Positions 42,092 through 46,573 of a stretch of DNA of 64,000 nt are shown here, in pieces. The notes under the pieces are model-generated. The model ran no database searches. It saw nothing but the letters and a program-made list of their open reading frames with translations, and was not told the origin of the DNA. Positions within the stretch are counted from its first letter, which is position 1, and each line of letters begins with the position of its first letter. The DNA comes from Microbacterium sp. SORGH_AS_0862 (GTDB lineage: Bacteria; Actinomycetota; Actinomycetes; Actinomycetales; Microbacteriaceae). The position numbers were made by a program, and so were the translations under genes. The stretch lies in NCBI RefSeq assembly GCF_030818795.1, contig NZ_JAUTAY010000001.1, forward strand, positions 1,302,001 to 1,366,000. The letters are read 5' to 3'.

Positions 42092-42967
42092 GTGGCACGT
42101 AACACCCCCGCACCCGACCCGGCCGCATCCCTCGCACTCCTCGACGGCTTCTCGCTCGAGATGACCGGCAAGGACATCCCCGGGCTCGAAGAGGCCCGCG
42201 ACGTCATCCCCGCCGGGACCAAGATCAACGTCACCTTCCTCGGCAACGAGGATCTCGATATGCGCGTCGCGGCGGCCAAGGCCGTGAAGGACGCCGGGTT
42301 CGTCCCCGTCCCGCACGTGTCGGCCCGCCGACTCGCCTCGGCGGCCCAGCTGGAGGAGTTCCTCGATCGCCTGCAGCAGGTGGGTGCCACCGAGCACGTC
42401 TTCGCCGTCGGTGGCGACCCGGCCGAGCCCGAGGGGCCCTACCCCGACTCGCTGAGCGTCATCCGCTCCGGCATCCTGCAGAAGTACGGCGTGCGCGAGG
42501 TCTCGATCGCCGGCTACCCCGAGGGACACCCCGACATCCCCACGGATGTGCTGTGGCGCCACCTCGAGGACAAGTCGGCGGCCCTCGCGGATGCGGGCCT
42601 CGGCCAGGTCATCCTGACGCAGTTCGCCTTCGACACCGACCCGGTCATCGACTGGATCGACGGGGTGCGCGAGCGCGGTGTCACCGCGGAGATCCGCATC
42701 GGCACGCCGGGCCCCGCGGGCATCAAGCGCCTGATCACCTTCGCCCGCCGCTTCGGCGTCGGCGCGAACGCGATGATCGTGAAGAAGTATGGGTTCTCGC
42801 TCACCAATCTGATGGGAACGGCGGGCCCCGACCGGTTCATCGGCGACCTCGGAGCGCTCGTCGCGCAGAAGGACTCGCGCGGACCTGTCAAAATTCACTT
42901 CTACACGTTCGGCGGTCTGCGGGCGACATCCGACTGGGCCCGCGACTACATCGCCGCGCAGTCCTGA
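42092..42967 (+). CDS. metF: Methylenetetrahydrofolate reductase-like protein
   Basis: 291 residues from a GTG at 42092 (GGAAGGACC upstream). A TIM-barrel FAD protein of the MTHFR family: 'VIPAGTKINVTFLGNEDLDMRVAAAKAVKDAGFVPVPHVSARR' (about 31-74), 'HVFAVGGDPAEPEGPYPDSLSVI', and 'QFAFDTDPVIDWIDGVRERGV' with 'PGPAGIKRLITFARRFGVG'. In THF-dependent O-demethylation the methyl group ends as 5-methyl-THF. This enzyme, running in the oxidative direction, would regenerate 5,10-methylene-THF, as the metF beside ligM does in Sphingobium SYK-6. It heads an operon with purU and the demethylase. Confidence 0.85.
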   Translation: MARNTPAPDPAASLALLDGFSLEMTGKDIPGLEEARDVIPAGTKINVTFLGNEDLDMRVAAAKAVKDAGFVPVPHVSARRLASAAQLEEFLDRLQQVGATEHVFAVGGDPAEPEGPYPDSLSVIRSGILQKYGVREVSIAGYPEGHPDIPTDVLWRHLEDKSAALADAGLGQVILTQFAFDTDPVIDWIDGVRERGVTAEIRIGTPGPAGIKRLITFARRFGVGANAMIVKKYGFSLTNLMGTAGPDRFIGDLGALVAQKDSRGPVKIHFYTFGGLRATSDWARDYIAAQS

Positions 42968-42979
42968 GGAGATCCCCGC

Positions 42980-43855
42980 ATGTCCCTGCACAAAGACGCC
43001 CTGCGTGACCACGCCTGCCTGATCGTGCACGGCCCCGACCAGCCCGGGCTCGTCGCCGCCGTCACCGCACTCATCACGCGCAACAAGGCGAACATCGTCA
43101 CGCTCGACCAGTACTCGGACAACCCCGAGGGCGGCGCGTTCTTCCAGCGCGTCGTCTTCCACCGGCCCGACCTGGCAGCGGCGATCGGCGACATCGAAGC
43201 CGACCTCGCTCAGACGCTGGAGCCCTACGGGATGCAGTGGCGCCTGACCGACCAGTCGGTGCCGAAGCGGATGGCGATCCTCGCCTCCACGAGCGATCAC
43301 TGCCTGCTCGAGCTGCTGTGGCGCCACCGCCGGGGCGAGCTCAATGTCACGATCCCGATGGTGATCTCCAACCACACGAACACCGCTGAGGACGTGCGCT
43401 CGTTCGGCATCCCCTTCTTCCACGTGCCCTCGCAGGGGCCGGACAAGTCGGAGGCCGAGCGCGAGATCGTCAAGCTCCTCGCCGGCAACGTCGACTTCGT
43501 CGTGCTGGCGCGCTACATGCAGATCCTCACCGACGACTTCCTCGAGGGCGTCGGCGTGCCGGTCATCAACATCCACCACTCCTTCCTTCCCGCCTTCATC
43601 GGCGCCGGCCCCTACAAGAAGGCCAAGGAACGCGGCGTCAAACTCATCGGCGCCACCAGCCACTACGTCACCAAGGACCTCGATGAGGGCCCGATCATCG
43701 AGCAGGACGTCGCCCGCGTCGACCACTCGATGACCGCCGCCGACCTTCAGGCCCGCGGTGCGTACGTCGAGCGGGCCGTACTCTCGCGCGCCGTGCAGTG
43801 GCACGCCGAAGACCGTGTCATCCGGCACGGCAACCACACCATCGTCTTCACCTGA
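42980..43855 (+). CDS. purU: Formyltetrahydrofolate deformylase
   Basis: 291 residues, ATG at 42980 after GAGGAG. N-terminal ACT domain ('LIVHGPDQPGLVAAVTALITRNKANIVTLDQYSD', about 14-47) and a formyltransferase catalytic domain ('MAILASTSDHCLLELLWRHRRGELNVTIPMVISNH', 'FVVLARYMQILTDDF', 'VINIHHSFLPAFIGAGPYKKAKERGVKLIGATSHYVTKDLDEGPIIEQ') with the Asn-His-Asp set (IHHSFLP, DEGPI). It hydrolyses 10-formyl-THF to THF and formate. Next to the demethylase it would free THF for the next methyl transfer, in place of the formate-THF ligase (LigH) used in Sphingobium. Confidence 0.9.
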   Translation: MSLHKDALRDHACLIVHGPDQPGLVAAVTALITRNKANIVTLDQYSDNPEGGAFFQRVVFHRPDLAAAIGDIEADLAQTLEPYGMQWRLTDQSVPKRMAILASTSDHCLLELLWRHRRGELNVTIPMVISNHTNTAEDVRSFGIPFFHVPSQGPDKSEAEREIVKLLAGNVDFVVLARYMQILTDDFLEGVGVPVINIHHSFLPAFIGAGPYKKAKERGVKLIGATSHYVTKDLDEGPIIEQDVARVDHSMTAADLQARGAYVERAVLSRAVQWHAEDRVIRHGNHTIVFT

Positions 43856-43903
43856 CTCCGACGCCTCACCCGAGGCGCCGGCCCCCGAACAGAGAGGTTC
43901 ATC

Positions 43904-45313: not shown

Positions 45314-45354
45314 CGCCGACGCGGGGCCCGGTCCTGCCGGGCCCCGCGTCGGCG
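45314..45354 (+). terminator. Rho-independent terminator
   Basis: Perfect 18-bp stem CGCCGACGCGGGGCCCGG (45314-45331) / CCGGGCCCCGCGTCGGCG (45337-45354), 5-nt loop, followed by TTT. It lies 6 bp after the demethylase stop and ends the metF-purU-demethylase transcript. Confidence 0.92.
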
Positions 45355-45398
45355 TTTATGGATAGCCTCAGAGCCACACCTCGGAAGGAGATCGGCGG

Positions 45399-45995
45399 AT
45401 GAGCCTGCGCTACGCGCTCCTCGCCCTCGTGCGGGTGGGACCCCAGTCCGGCTACGACCTGCAGAAGCAGTTCGCCGTATCGGTCGGGCACGTCTGGCAC
45501 GCCCCGGACTCCCAGATCTATCCCGAGCTTCGCAAGATGGAGGCCGAGGGCCTGGTGCGCGGTGAGGAACAGGCTCGCGGCGAGCGCGGCACCCGCCGGA
45601 TGTACCACATCACCCCCGAGGGGGATACGGCCTTCCTCGCGTGGATGTCAGCACCCCTGGACTACCAGCGCGTGCGCGACCCCGCCCATCTGCGCGCTGC
45701 CTACCTCGAAGCGGGGACGCCCGCCGACTCCCGCGCGTTCCTGCGGGCGCACATCGCCCAGTGGGAGAGCGAGCTCGAGCAGTGGGAGGGCGAACTGGCG
45801 CGCATCGACGCCGTCGACAACCCCATGCTGCTGCGCCGGCTCGCGGTCACCGCCGAGGAGGACAGGGAACGCACGATCGCCTACAAGCGCTTCGCCTACG
45901 AGGGCCTCGTCGAGCGGGCGCGGGGCGAGATCTCGTGGGCGCAGCGCGGCCTCGCCCTCGTCGAGCGCCTCGAAGGCGCAGAAGGAGCATCATGA
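45399..45995 (+). CDS. PadR-family transcriptional regulator
   Basis: 198 residues, ATG at 45399 after GGAAGGAGA. N-terminal winged helix 'LRYALLALVRVGPQSGYDLQKQFAVSVGHVWHAPDSQIYPELRKMEAEGLV' (about 3-53), then 'RMYHITPEGDTAFLAWM' and a C-terminal helical domain of the Vir-C/PadR-2 class (about 95-190). PadR proteins repress phenolic-acid genes and are released by the phenolic compound. It is the best candidate for the palindrome at 42020-42037. Its stop overlaps the folE start (ATGA). Confidence 0.88.
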   Translation: MSLRYALLALVRVGPQSGYDLQKQFAVSVGHVWHAPDSQIYPELRKMEAEGLVRGEEQARGERGTRRMYHITPEGDTAFLAWMSAPLDYQRVRDPAHLRAAYLEAGTPADSRAFLRAHIAQWESELEQWEGELARIDAVDNPMLLRRLAVTAEEDRERTIAYKRFAYEGLVERARGEISWAQRGLALVERLEGAEGAS

Positions 45996-46573
45996 CCATC
46001 GACACGGCAGCGCGCACCGACCGCGCCCGGGCGGTCGCGGCCGTTCGCGAGCTCCTCGAGGCCGTCGGCGAGGATGCCGACCGTCTCGGGCTCACCCGCA
46101 CCCCCGAGCGGGTGGCGGATCTCTTCCTCGATCTGTTCTCCGGACTTGGTATTGACCCGGCGTCCGCGCTCGGTGCACCCGTCGCCCTCACCGACAACGA
46201 GCACCCCGGTGAGCTGGTCGGGATGACGGCGATCCCGTTCCGCTCGGTGTGCGAGCATCACCTGCTCCCCTTCGAGGGGACGGTCGACGTCTTCTACGCG
46301 CCGGTGCGTCACATCGCGGGCCTCAGCCGCATCGCGACGCTCGTCGAGCTCGCCTCCCGGCGGCCCCAGCTGCAGGAGCGCCTCGGACACCAGATCGCCG
46401 ATGCACTCATGACGGTGCTTCGCCCGCACGGGGTGGCCGTGAGGGTGGAGGCCCGGCACGGCTGCGTGGCTCATCTGGAGCCGAGCGCCGCATCCGCTCG
46501 CGTGGTCACCGTCGCTACCCTCGGCGACATCCCCGACGCGACCTGGCGCCTCGCCGCACCCTCCACCCCGTGA
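45992..46573 (+). CDS. folE: GTP cyclohydrolase I
   Basis: 193 residues, ATG at 45992. 'GLTRTPERVADLFLDLFSGLG' (about 35-55), the zinc motif 'SVCEHHLLPFEGTVDVFYAP' (about 87-106), 'GLSRIATLVELASRRPQLQERLGHQIADALM' and the second zinc Cys in 'ARHGCVAHLEP'. It makes dihydroneopterin triphosphate, the first step of folate synthesis. The usual 'CMxMRGV' after the last zinc Cys is 'CVAHLEP' here, a divergent tail. Coupled to the PadR gene, it is probably an accessory copy that raises the folate pool for O-demethylation. Confidence 0.87.
   Translation: MTIDTAARTDRARAVAAVRELLEAVGEDADRLGLTRTPERVADLFLDLFSGLGIDPASALGAPVALTDNEHPGELVGMTAIPFRSVCEHHLLPFEGTVDVFYAPVRHIAGLSRIATLVELASRRPQLQERLGHQIADALMTVLRPHGVAVRVEARHGCVAHLEPSAASARVVTVATLGDIPDATWRLAAPSTP

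Follow-up and report, generated by a model that had tools for sequence, protein, structure and literature searches.

A metF-purU-ligM operon, probably under PadR control, as a likely one-carbon hub for O-demethylation in Microbacterium

Introduction

Tetrahydrofolate (THF)-dependent O-demethylation is a key step of biological lignin use and has been best studied in sphingomonads. In Sphingobium lignivorans SYK-6, LigM makes 5-methyl-THF, which is oxidised by a methylene-THF reductase (MTHFR), and this module is said to replace the missing glycine cleavage system (PMC12585457). The portion of a further account that deals with the one-carbon (C1) route of SYK-6 describes LigM methyl transfer and a ligM-metF-ligH operon (PMC6888825). 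It has already been stated that many bacteria possess LigM together with the SYK-6-type MTHFR (PMC12585457), and in an excerpt of another paper an actinobacterial genome bin is reported to carry LigM-type genes accompanied by metF and ligH (PMC9296663). Here we analyse a related locus, metF-purU-ligM followed by padR and folE2, of Microbacterium sp. SORGH_AS_0862; it lies in a 64,000-nucleotide stretch (C1:1302001-1366000, hereafter the window) of a 3.50 Mb genome consisting of a single contig, C1.

PurU is the exit of the dicamba Dmt systems, which act on another substrate, belong to another phylum and have their own dehydrogenase/cyclohydrolase; in the Rhizorhabdus clusters dmt is presumably found with metF, dhc and purU. 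None of these genes is mentioned in the part of PMC9404685 considered here. For growth of Methylobacterium extorquens CM4 on chloromethane, the part of the report considered here depicts oxidation as running through FolD and PurU (PMC3621897). The PadR-like VanR of Corynebacterium glutamicum represses vanABK and is relieved by vanillate, according to the relevant section of PMC8358305. As for the genus itself, a groundwater study found Microbacterium labelled by veratric acid and described it as capable of degrading this compound, which fits; the part of the text considered here names no genes (PMC10602745). Among the top matches in the open-licence PMC literature we found no prior description of the metF-purU-ligM operon, of the palindrome described below or of folE2.

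Results and Discussion

The locus compared with described systems

We consider it likely that the locus is a repressor-controlled hub for the C1 unit of methoxylated aromatics, ending in formate. Its elements are collected in Table 1. The ligM and metF genes are adjacent and co-oriented, with purU between them, as in a candidate operon. An earlier sequence-only reading had named metF-like, purU, ligM, padR and folE (here folE2) genes at these positions, with padR overlapping folE; both statements were verified, the two reading frames sharing 4 bases.

Table 1. Elements of the locus and related features (window positions, unless prefixed by C1)
Feature	Position	Strand	Basis
Promoter-like TTGTCA (42013-42018) and TACTCT (42036-42041), 17-base spacing, operator between	42013..42041	+	Alignment of 74 upstream sites, our reading
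Operator palindrome TACCTATCGACATAGGTA (TACCTAT-N4-ATAGGTA)	42020..42037	.	Unique window match; recurs in relatives; tracks padR
metF-like, methylene-THF reductase of 7xg9 type, 291 aa	42092..42967	+	Pfam, NCBIfam, PDB matches
purU, formyl-THF deformylase, 291 aa	42980..43855	+	TIGR00655; PDB deformylase 3w7b
ligM, THF-dependent aryl O-demethylase, 467 aa	43904..45307	+	NF047885; PDB LigM; active-site residues
21-pair hairpin, probable terminator of metF-purU-ligM	45312..45358	+	-52.5 kcal/mol, z -8.1
padR, probable repressor of metF-purU-ligM, 198 aa	45399..45995	+	Pfam PadR; PDB match; tracks operator
folE2, GTP-cyclohydrolase-I-like, diverged subfamily, 193 aa	45992..46573	+	Profiles, predicted GTP cyclohydrolase I fold
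GntR/FCD regulator	46636..47301	+	Pfam; adjoins folE2 in several relatives
Liv/Urt-type ABC transporter (binding protein, two permeases, two ATPases)	47459..52100	-	Profiles
Second LigM/DesA-family protein, 454 aa	52362..53726	+	NF047633 478 of 800, NF047885 444 of 580 bits; Tyr, His kept
Third LigM/DesA-family protein (DesA-like), past window end	62731..64000	-	NF047633 575 of 800 bits (in stretch L129)
Fourth LigM/DesA-family protein, LigM2	C1:1367257-1368660		73% identical to operon LigM
Fifth LigM/DesA-family protein, 471 aa, about 22 kb before the window	C1:1278724-1280139		46% identical to operon LigM

LigM passes the vanillate/3-O-methylgallate O-demethylase profile NF047885 (878 bits against a cut-off of 580), matches the LigM structures 5x1i/5tl4 (736 bits) and retains the aligned Tyr and His, which we take to be catalytic, and the LigM Arg, presumably substrate-binding. 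PurU exceeds the cut-off of TIGR00655 (352 against 286 bits). With 39 bits the metF-like product clears the Pfam MTHFR cut-off of 24, but it stays far below the MetF equivalog TIGR00676 (40 of 294 bits); its top PDB match, with full-length similarity, is 7xg9 (278 bits, residues 7-286), a methylene-THF reductase presumed to be the SYK-6 enzyme. The PadR product matches Pfam PadR with 55 bits (cut-off 27).

In the proposed cycle LigM would transfer the aryl O-methyl group, from vanillate or 3-O-methylgallate to judge by its family, to THF, yielding 5-methyl-THF; the four LigM paralogues of this genome probably do the same. The operon MetF, of the SYK-6 type, would oxidise 5-methyl-THF to 5,10-methylene-THF, the housekeeping FolD, encoded elsewhere, would take this to 10-formyl-THF, and PurU would hydrolyse the latter to THF and formate, pulling the cycle forward and regenerating the acceptor. 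The enzyme activities, the oxidative direction of MetF and the fate of the formate are taken by analogy with the systems introduced above, and one MetF-PurU pair may serve all five demethylases.

The gene complement of the genome agrees with this scheme. It had been noted from the sequence that the window lacks FolD and that the methylene- to formyl-THF step must come from elsewhere; the sole FolD over cut-off is indeed encoded outside the window, at C1:734187 beside glyA. No match to formate-THF ligase (FTHFS) was found in the genome, in line with the earlier suggestion that PurU stands in place of the LigH of SYK-6. Only the operon PurU exceeds its cut-off, two weaker matches to the profile (71 and 22 bits) probably being PurN and another formyltransferase, and the operon metF is the single genome match in a search covering PF02219 reductases only. 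The gcvT, gcvH and gcvP products score over their cut-offs.

Like the SYK-6 operon, the locus unites LigM and an MTHFR of the same type, and by analogy aryl methyl ethers would be converted to 5-methyl-THF, which is then oxidised. The FolD of SYK-6 is presumably encoded apart from ligM-metF-ligH, as here. Unlike SYK-6, the locus has PurU instead of the formyl-THF synthetase LigH, a padR gene and a palindrome instead of the MarR-type DesR, and the genome retains the glycine cleavage system that SYK-6 lacks. The content and order of the LigM, MetF-type and PurU genes thus bear out the view of an actinobacterial variant of THF-dependent O-demethylation; what is new here is the metF-purU-ligM arrangement, a variant of the LigM-MetF system with PurU where SYK-6 has LigH. 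The M. extorquens CM4 set (cmuA, cmuB, metF2, folD, purU, folC2), as far as the part of its description considered here covers it, likewise leads from methyl-THF to formate via MetF, FolD and PurU and contains an extra folate gene, whereas it differs in its corrinoid methyltransferases, in acting on a halomethane, in having folD in the cluster and in carrying folC2 where folE is found here.

Operator and transcription units

The palindrome TACCTATCGACATAGGTA upstream of metF is the sole match in the window at up to three mismatches, where 0.05 are expected. Its core, ACCTAT-N4-ATAGGT, occurs at up to one mismatch at 85 sites in the 2,247,905 bases of fetched loci, against 2 sites in one base-shuffled copy of these loci; the nearest downstream gene is metF for 68 sites, ligM for 6, and another gene or none for 11. 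A stricter search, for exact ACCTA-N4..8-TAGGT, placed the motif before 38 of 85 metF genes. When 74 sites were aligned, the arms were constant and the four middle bases variable, a pattern expected of a protein site, and the palindrome lay between a -35-like TTG(A/C)CA and a -10-like TA(A/T)(T/A)(G/C)T spaced 17 bases apart. A generic promoter scan listed no promoter at 42013-42041.

The site also tracks padR, which was counted if found within the next four genes after metF. At up to two mismatches, site and padR occurred together in 64 of 86 metF loci, 5 of them repeat fetches of a genome already counted. A further 10 loci, some truncated at contig ends, had the site alone, 12 had neither, and in no locus was padR present without it; the p value of 4e-9 is only a guide, because the loci are related. 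At up to one mismatch the corresponding numbers were 59, 10, 12 and 5. Distant PadR homologues (40-43%) in loci L044 and L045, below the label threshold, lack the operator site. The recurrence of the palindrome before metF or ligM in relatives, together with its association with padR, indicates that metF-purU-ligM is probably under PadR control. PadR, which matches PDB entries 6lg2/5z7b (164 bits, residues 1-190) that we take to be C. glutamicum VanR, would bind the palindrome within the metF promoter and would probably be released upon binding an aromatic acid. As in the case of VanR, to the extent that the section cited above describes it, a PadR-family gene adjoins vanillate demethylation genes; unlike here, VanR governs a Rieske oxygenase system, and its operator lies downstream of the -10 region, whereas the present palindrome lies between the -35-like and -10-like hexamers.

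No further site was found at up to one mismatch in the stretches of this genome with other demethylase genes (the rest of the window, L129 and L130), and these genes adjoin IclR-, MarR- and LysR-type genes. It therefore seems that one operator serves the C1 hub, individual demethylases being under other regulators.

A strong hairpin separates ligM from padR. Hairpins of -30 kcal/mol or stronger were present in 59 of 67 ligM-padR gaps (double fetches included) compared with 61 of 400 random 92-base stretches; a terminator scan did not list the ligM-padR hairpin, and the T run behind it is short. The metF-purU gap has a median of 10 bases (n=67 pairs), and 8 of 11 padR-folE2 pairs show the 4-base overlap, the present locus and double fetches being counted. 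In view of the hairpin, metF-purU-ligM and padR-folE2 are probably two transcription units, folE2 being transcribed with padR, apart from the demethylase operon. The stretch that the sequence-only reading presented as one operon would then be a candidate metF-purU-ligM operon and, probably, a separate padR-folE unit.

Conservation within Microbacterium

The distribution of the genes was followed in 149 Microbacterium genomes, the present one included. LigM was over cut-off in 35. The SYK-6-type MetF, recognised as a short PF02219 match (25-43 bits) ending at profile position 202-207, was found in all 37 genomes with LigM sequence (the 35 plus G140 and G152, which have LigM fragments) and in none of the 112 others; some LigM-free genomes have weak PF02219 matches that extend to 236-277, and these are set apart by that criterion only. 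The 112 include G187, whose LigM-family match (400 bits) is partial. A canonical MTHFR (>180 bits) is additionally encoded in 14 of the 35 LigM genomes. PF02219 had no match in 49 of the 149 genomes, all without LigM and nearly all with PurU. PurU itself was over cut-off in 147 of 149 genomes irrespective of LigM, and purU presence was accordingly rejected as a marker of the demethylation system. GTP cyclohydrolase I was matched in 146 of 149, in a list reaching down to about 195 bits, below which folE2-type copies score, so that folE2 may also occur in genomes lacking ligM.

Operons were fetched from 33 of the other 36 LigM-bearing genomes, the fragmentary G140, G152 and G181 being left out. 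The order metF-purU-ligM was contiguous in 31 of 33, the remaining two being cut by contig or fetch ends. Sequence downstream of ligM was available for 31 loci, and in all but L106, which lacks padR, the next gene is padR (30 loci). Of the order ligM-metF-purU-folE-padR that the sequence-only reading suggested searching for, the first three genes and padR were recovered, and folE in a minority only: folE2 follows padR in 7 of the 30 loci.

PurU and formate-THF ligase in other genera

In a scan that kept the best 80 of at least 594 loci, metF-purU-ligM was found, outside Microbacterium, in Sinomonas, Agromyces, Tersicoccus, Amnibacterium, Pseudolysinimonas, Kocuria and some Brevibacterium and Leucobacter (the contig of Leucobacter tardus, L066, begins at purU), whereas metF precedes ligM without purU at the locus in other Brevibacterium and Kocuria, in Arthrobacter and in Enteractinococcus. 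These loci come from 49 genomes, all of which have a PurU over cut-off somewhere.

A PurU tree was built from 62 rows. One clade (100/97) was formed by 13 housekeeping PurUs, with six more housekeeping rows more distant. A group of 40 with modest support (85/93) united the Microbacterium operon PurUs with six of the nine operon rows from other genera. It also held two rows labelled housekeeping in error, namely L122_3732, which belongs to the G147 operon, and L141, which represents a second metF-purU pair in G123; the other three other-genus operon rows fell outside. This grouping indicates that the operon PurU mostly forms a separate lineage, which in the present genome is the sole PurU left.

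FTHFS was over cut-off in 38 of the 49 genomes. Split by locus type, it was found in 17 of the 27 genomes whose ligM operon contains purU and in 20 of the 20 whose ligM locus lacks it (Fisher p 0.0025, relatedness ignored). This table leaves out two genomes in which purU lies some kb away: G048, where FTHFS does not reach the cut-off, and G049, where it does. A strict replacement of FTHFS by PurU is ruled out by the 17 genomes that have both; judging from these profile matches, PurU can stand alone, as here, and frequently coexists with FTHFS.

Alternative readings of the operon

The methyl group might instead be mainly assimilated into serine, purines, thymidylate and methionine, as in SYK-6, with PurU only trimming the formyl-THF pool. 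SYK-6 provides the precedent, its LigM and MTHFR replacing the missing glycine cleavage system (PMC12585457), and it would be in keeping with assimilation that the operon MetF is the only MTHFR-family match of the genome and that PurU is nearly universal in the genus. Here, however, the presence of gcvT, gcvH and gcvP and of glyA beside folD means that aromatic methyl groups are not needed for methylene-THF, and all 31 uncut congeneric loci have purU within the operon, an arrangement for which trimming by itself gives no reason. A replacement of the glycine cleavage system in the manner of SYK-6 is ruled out by the gcv genes, whose presence favours the reading that excess methyl groups are disposed of and THF is recovered; mainly assimilatory use appears rather unlikely. 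Still less credible is a neutral placement, in which metF and purU would be constitutively made housekeeping copies that came to lie before ligM by chance. That both are the only copies found in this genome would fit such a history, whereas the restriction of the SYK-6-type MetF to LigM-bearing genomes, the separate housekeeping PurU that many congeneric genomes retain and that forms its own clade, and the conserved operator in the metF promoter all speak against it. The sequence-only reading had made its case depend on purU and folE not being the only, constitutive housekeeping copies: purU and metF are sole copies, folE is not, and the conserved operator argues against constitutive expression.

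Several observations count against a hub ending in formate. As sole copies, purU and metF must serve general metabolism too; the near universality of PurU in the genus makes its mere presence uninformative; some related loci carry metF-ligM without adjoining purU; and where FTHFS coexists with operon purU, PurU is not always the only exit.

Other demethylases of the genome

Five full-length LigM/DesA-family proteins are encoded in the genome (Table 1), and the catalytic Tyr and a His are present in all of them. An Arg at the LigM position presumed to bind substrate is found only in the operon LigM and in LigM2. The second family member, 43% identical to LigM, lacks it; behind its gene (window 52362-55443) lie an IclR regulator and an NAD-binding/DUF1932 dehydrogenase. 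From window position 62731 to past the window end, C1:1364731-1372426 comprises the DesA-like protein, a LysR gene, LigM2 and, just outside the window, a gallate-pathway-like set. Divergent to the LigM2 gene lie one for a LigK/GalC-type aldolase (280 bits, cut-off 179) and others whose products resemble, below the cut-offs, 4-oxalomesaconate tautomerase (435 of 440 bits), catechol 2,3-dioxygenase (289 of 320) and a BshB1-type hydrolase (60 of 182). To judge from these profile matches, the set would fit gallate degradation and hence catabolism of syringate or 3-O-methylgallate. The five demethylases and the gallate-pathway-like genes give the aryl methyl ether context that the sequence-only reading had supposed.

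The diverged cyclohydrolase FolE2

FolE2 belongs to the GTP cyclohydrolase I (GCH1) family (171 bits with Pfam GTP_cyclohydroI, cut-off 27) and passes the broader NF006826 (175 over 162 bits), and falls below the folE equivalog TIGR00063 (146 of 182 bits). A canonical copy, the second GCH1 of the genome, lies at C1:1889915. Of 1426 homologues found, 120 were listed, and the closest 59 (the subfamily), which where named are from Microbacterium, Leucobacter or Luethyella, were compared with the 61 others listed. In a tree of 84 rows the 59, the present FolE2 and that of L. tardus group at 100/98, with one canonical long-branch row (P0093). The Arg of the RG motif (after HxC), which we take from E. 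coli GCH1 to bind phosphate, is present in 2 of 59 subfamily members against 60 of 61 others; the present FolE2 has Leu. The HxC-motif Cys is kept in 59 of 59. Two other arginines are fixed instead: at own position 113 Arg occurs in 57 of 59 subfamily members and 2 of 61 others, and at position 151 Arg is found in 57 of 59 where 53 of 61 others have Val. The fold, the guanine-side QER motif and the Zn ligands (by the same assumed correspondence with E. coli GCH1) are shared with GCH1; Cys87, His90, His156 and Cys158 are invariant among 54 aligned proteins. The predicted structure has a pLDDT of 92, and the 50 listed PDB matches are all GCH1. The housekeeping FolE of the genome is 41% identical to FolE2 and has the RG-motif Arg. 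Compared with six relatives, folE2 has dN/dS values of 0.01-0.17; it is under purifying selection, which rules out a decaying copy.

As its distribution shows, FolE2 is not part of the core operon but an accessory that a minority of lineages carry. In the PurU tree the seven folE2-bearing relatives and the present genome form one group (97/92) together with L103, which is without folE2; L. tardus also has folE2. A folE beside a second ligM in Agromyces (L061) was rejected as folE2, being of the canonical type. The idea that folE belongs to the operon is not upheld, given the hairpin and its presence in so few congeneric padR loci, and neither is that of a plain enlarger of the folate pool, given the lost RG-motif Arg and the canonical folE elsewhere.

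Our default guess is that FolE2 would be a Zn-dependent cyclohydrolase acting on GTP or a related purine or pterin. That it is an ordinary second GCH1, raising folate supply when THF is tied up as 5-methyl-THF, is an option whose chances we put slightly short of even; it concerns folE2 only and is compatible with the proposed hub. The GCH1 fold, confidently predicted, and the invariant Zn ligands favour it, and a second folate gene, folC2, likewise travels with the chloromethane pathway in the part of that report considered here (PMC3621897). The near absence of the RG-motif Arg from the subfamily, the 41% identity to the housekeeping FolE of this genome, which has it, the failure at the folE equivalog cut-off, the lack of folE2 in 23 of 30 congeneric padR loci and its probable absence from the ligM transcript point the other way. 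A far bolder proposal, to which we assign very little likelihood, is that FolE2 has left GTP and would act as a cyclohydrolase on a folate C1 intermediate (e.g. 5,10-methenyl-THF to 10-formyl-THF) or in the repair of a folate side-product, feeding PurU. On this long shot a Zn enzyme of the GCH1 fold, having lost the RG-motif Arg and gained new fixed arginines, would open a five-membered ring, which would suit a neighbourhood with purU and without folD.

Wider neighbourhood

The Liv/Urt-type transporter comes after gntR in many relatives and perhaps takes up aromatic substrates. An SsuABC/taurine-type ABC transporter is encoded at window 15626-19125, about 23 kb from metF; its relatives adjoin metF, divergently, in many other Microbacterium genomes. 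A shikimate-type symporter, an acyl-CoA synthetase and a MaoC-type hydratase (window 57683-61221) perhaps shorten the side chains of hydroxycinnamic acids and so feed the demethylases. A MerR regulator with a TipAS antibiotic-recognition domain lies at 56335-57072.

Implications

The folE2 subfamily offers a clean case of a cyclohydrolase with an altered active-site rim, and action on folate, if true, would be a new reaction for the GCH1 fold. If the proposed hub is correct, THF-dependent O-demethylation would have a widespread actinobacterial form with another exit, formate being released by hydrolysis where SYK-6 has a ligase. Its sharply defined promoter-operator would be usable as a sensor or for finding further operons, and one C1 module would serve five demethylases in a single genome.

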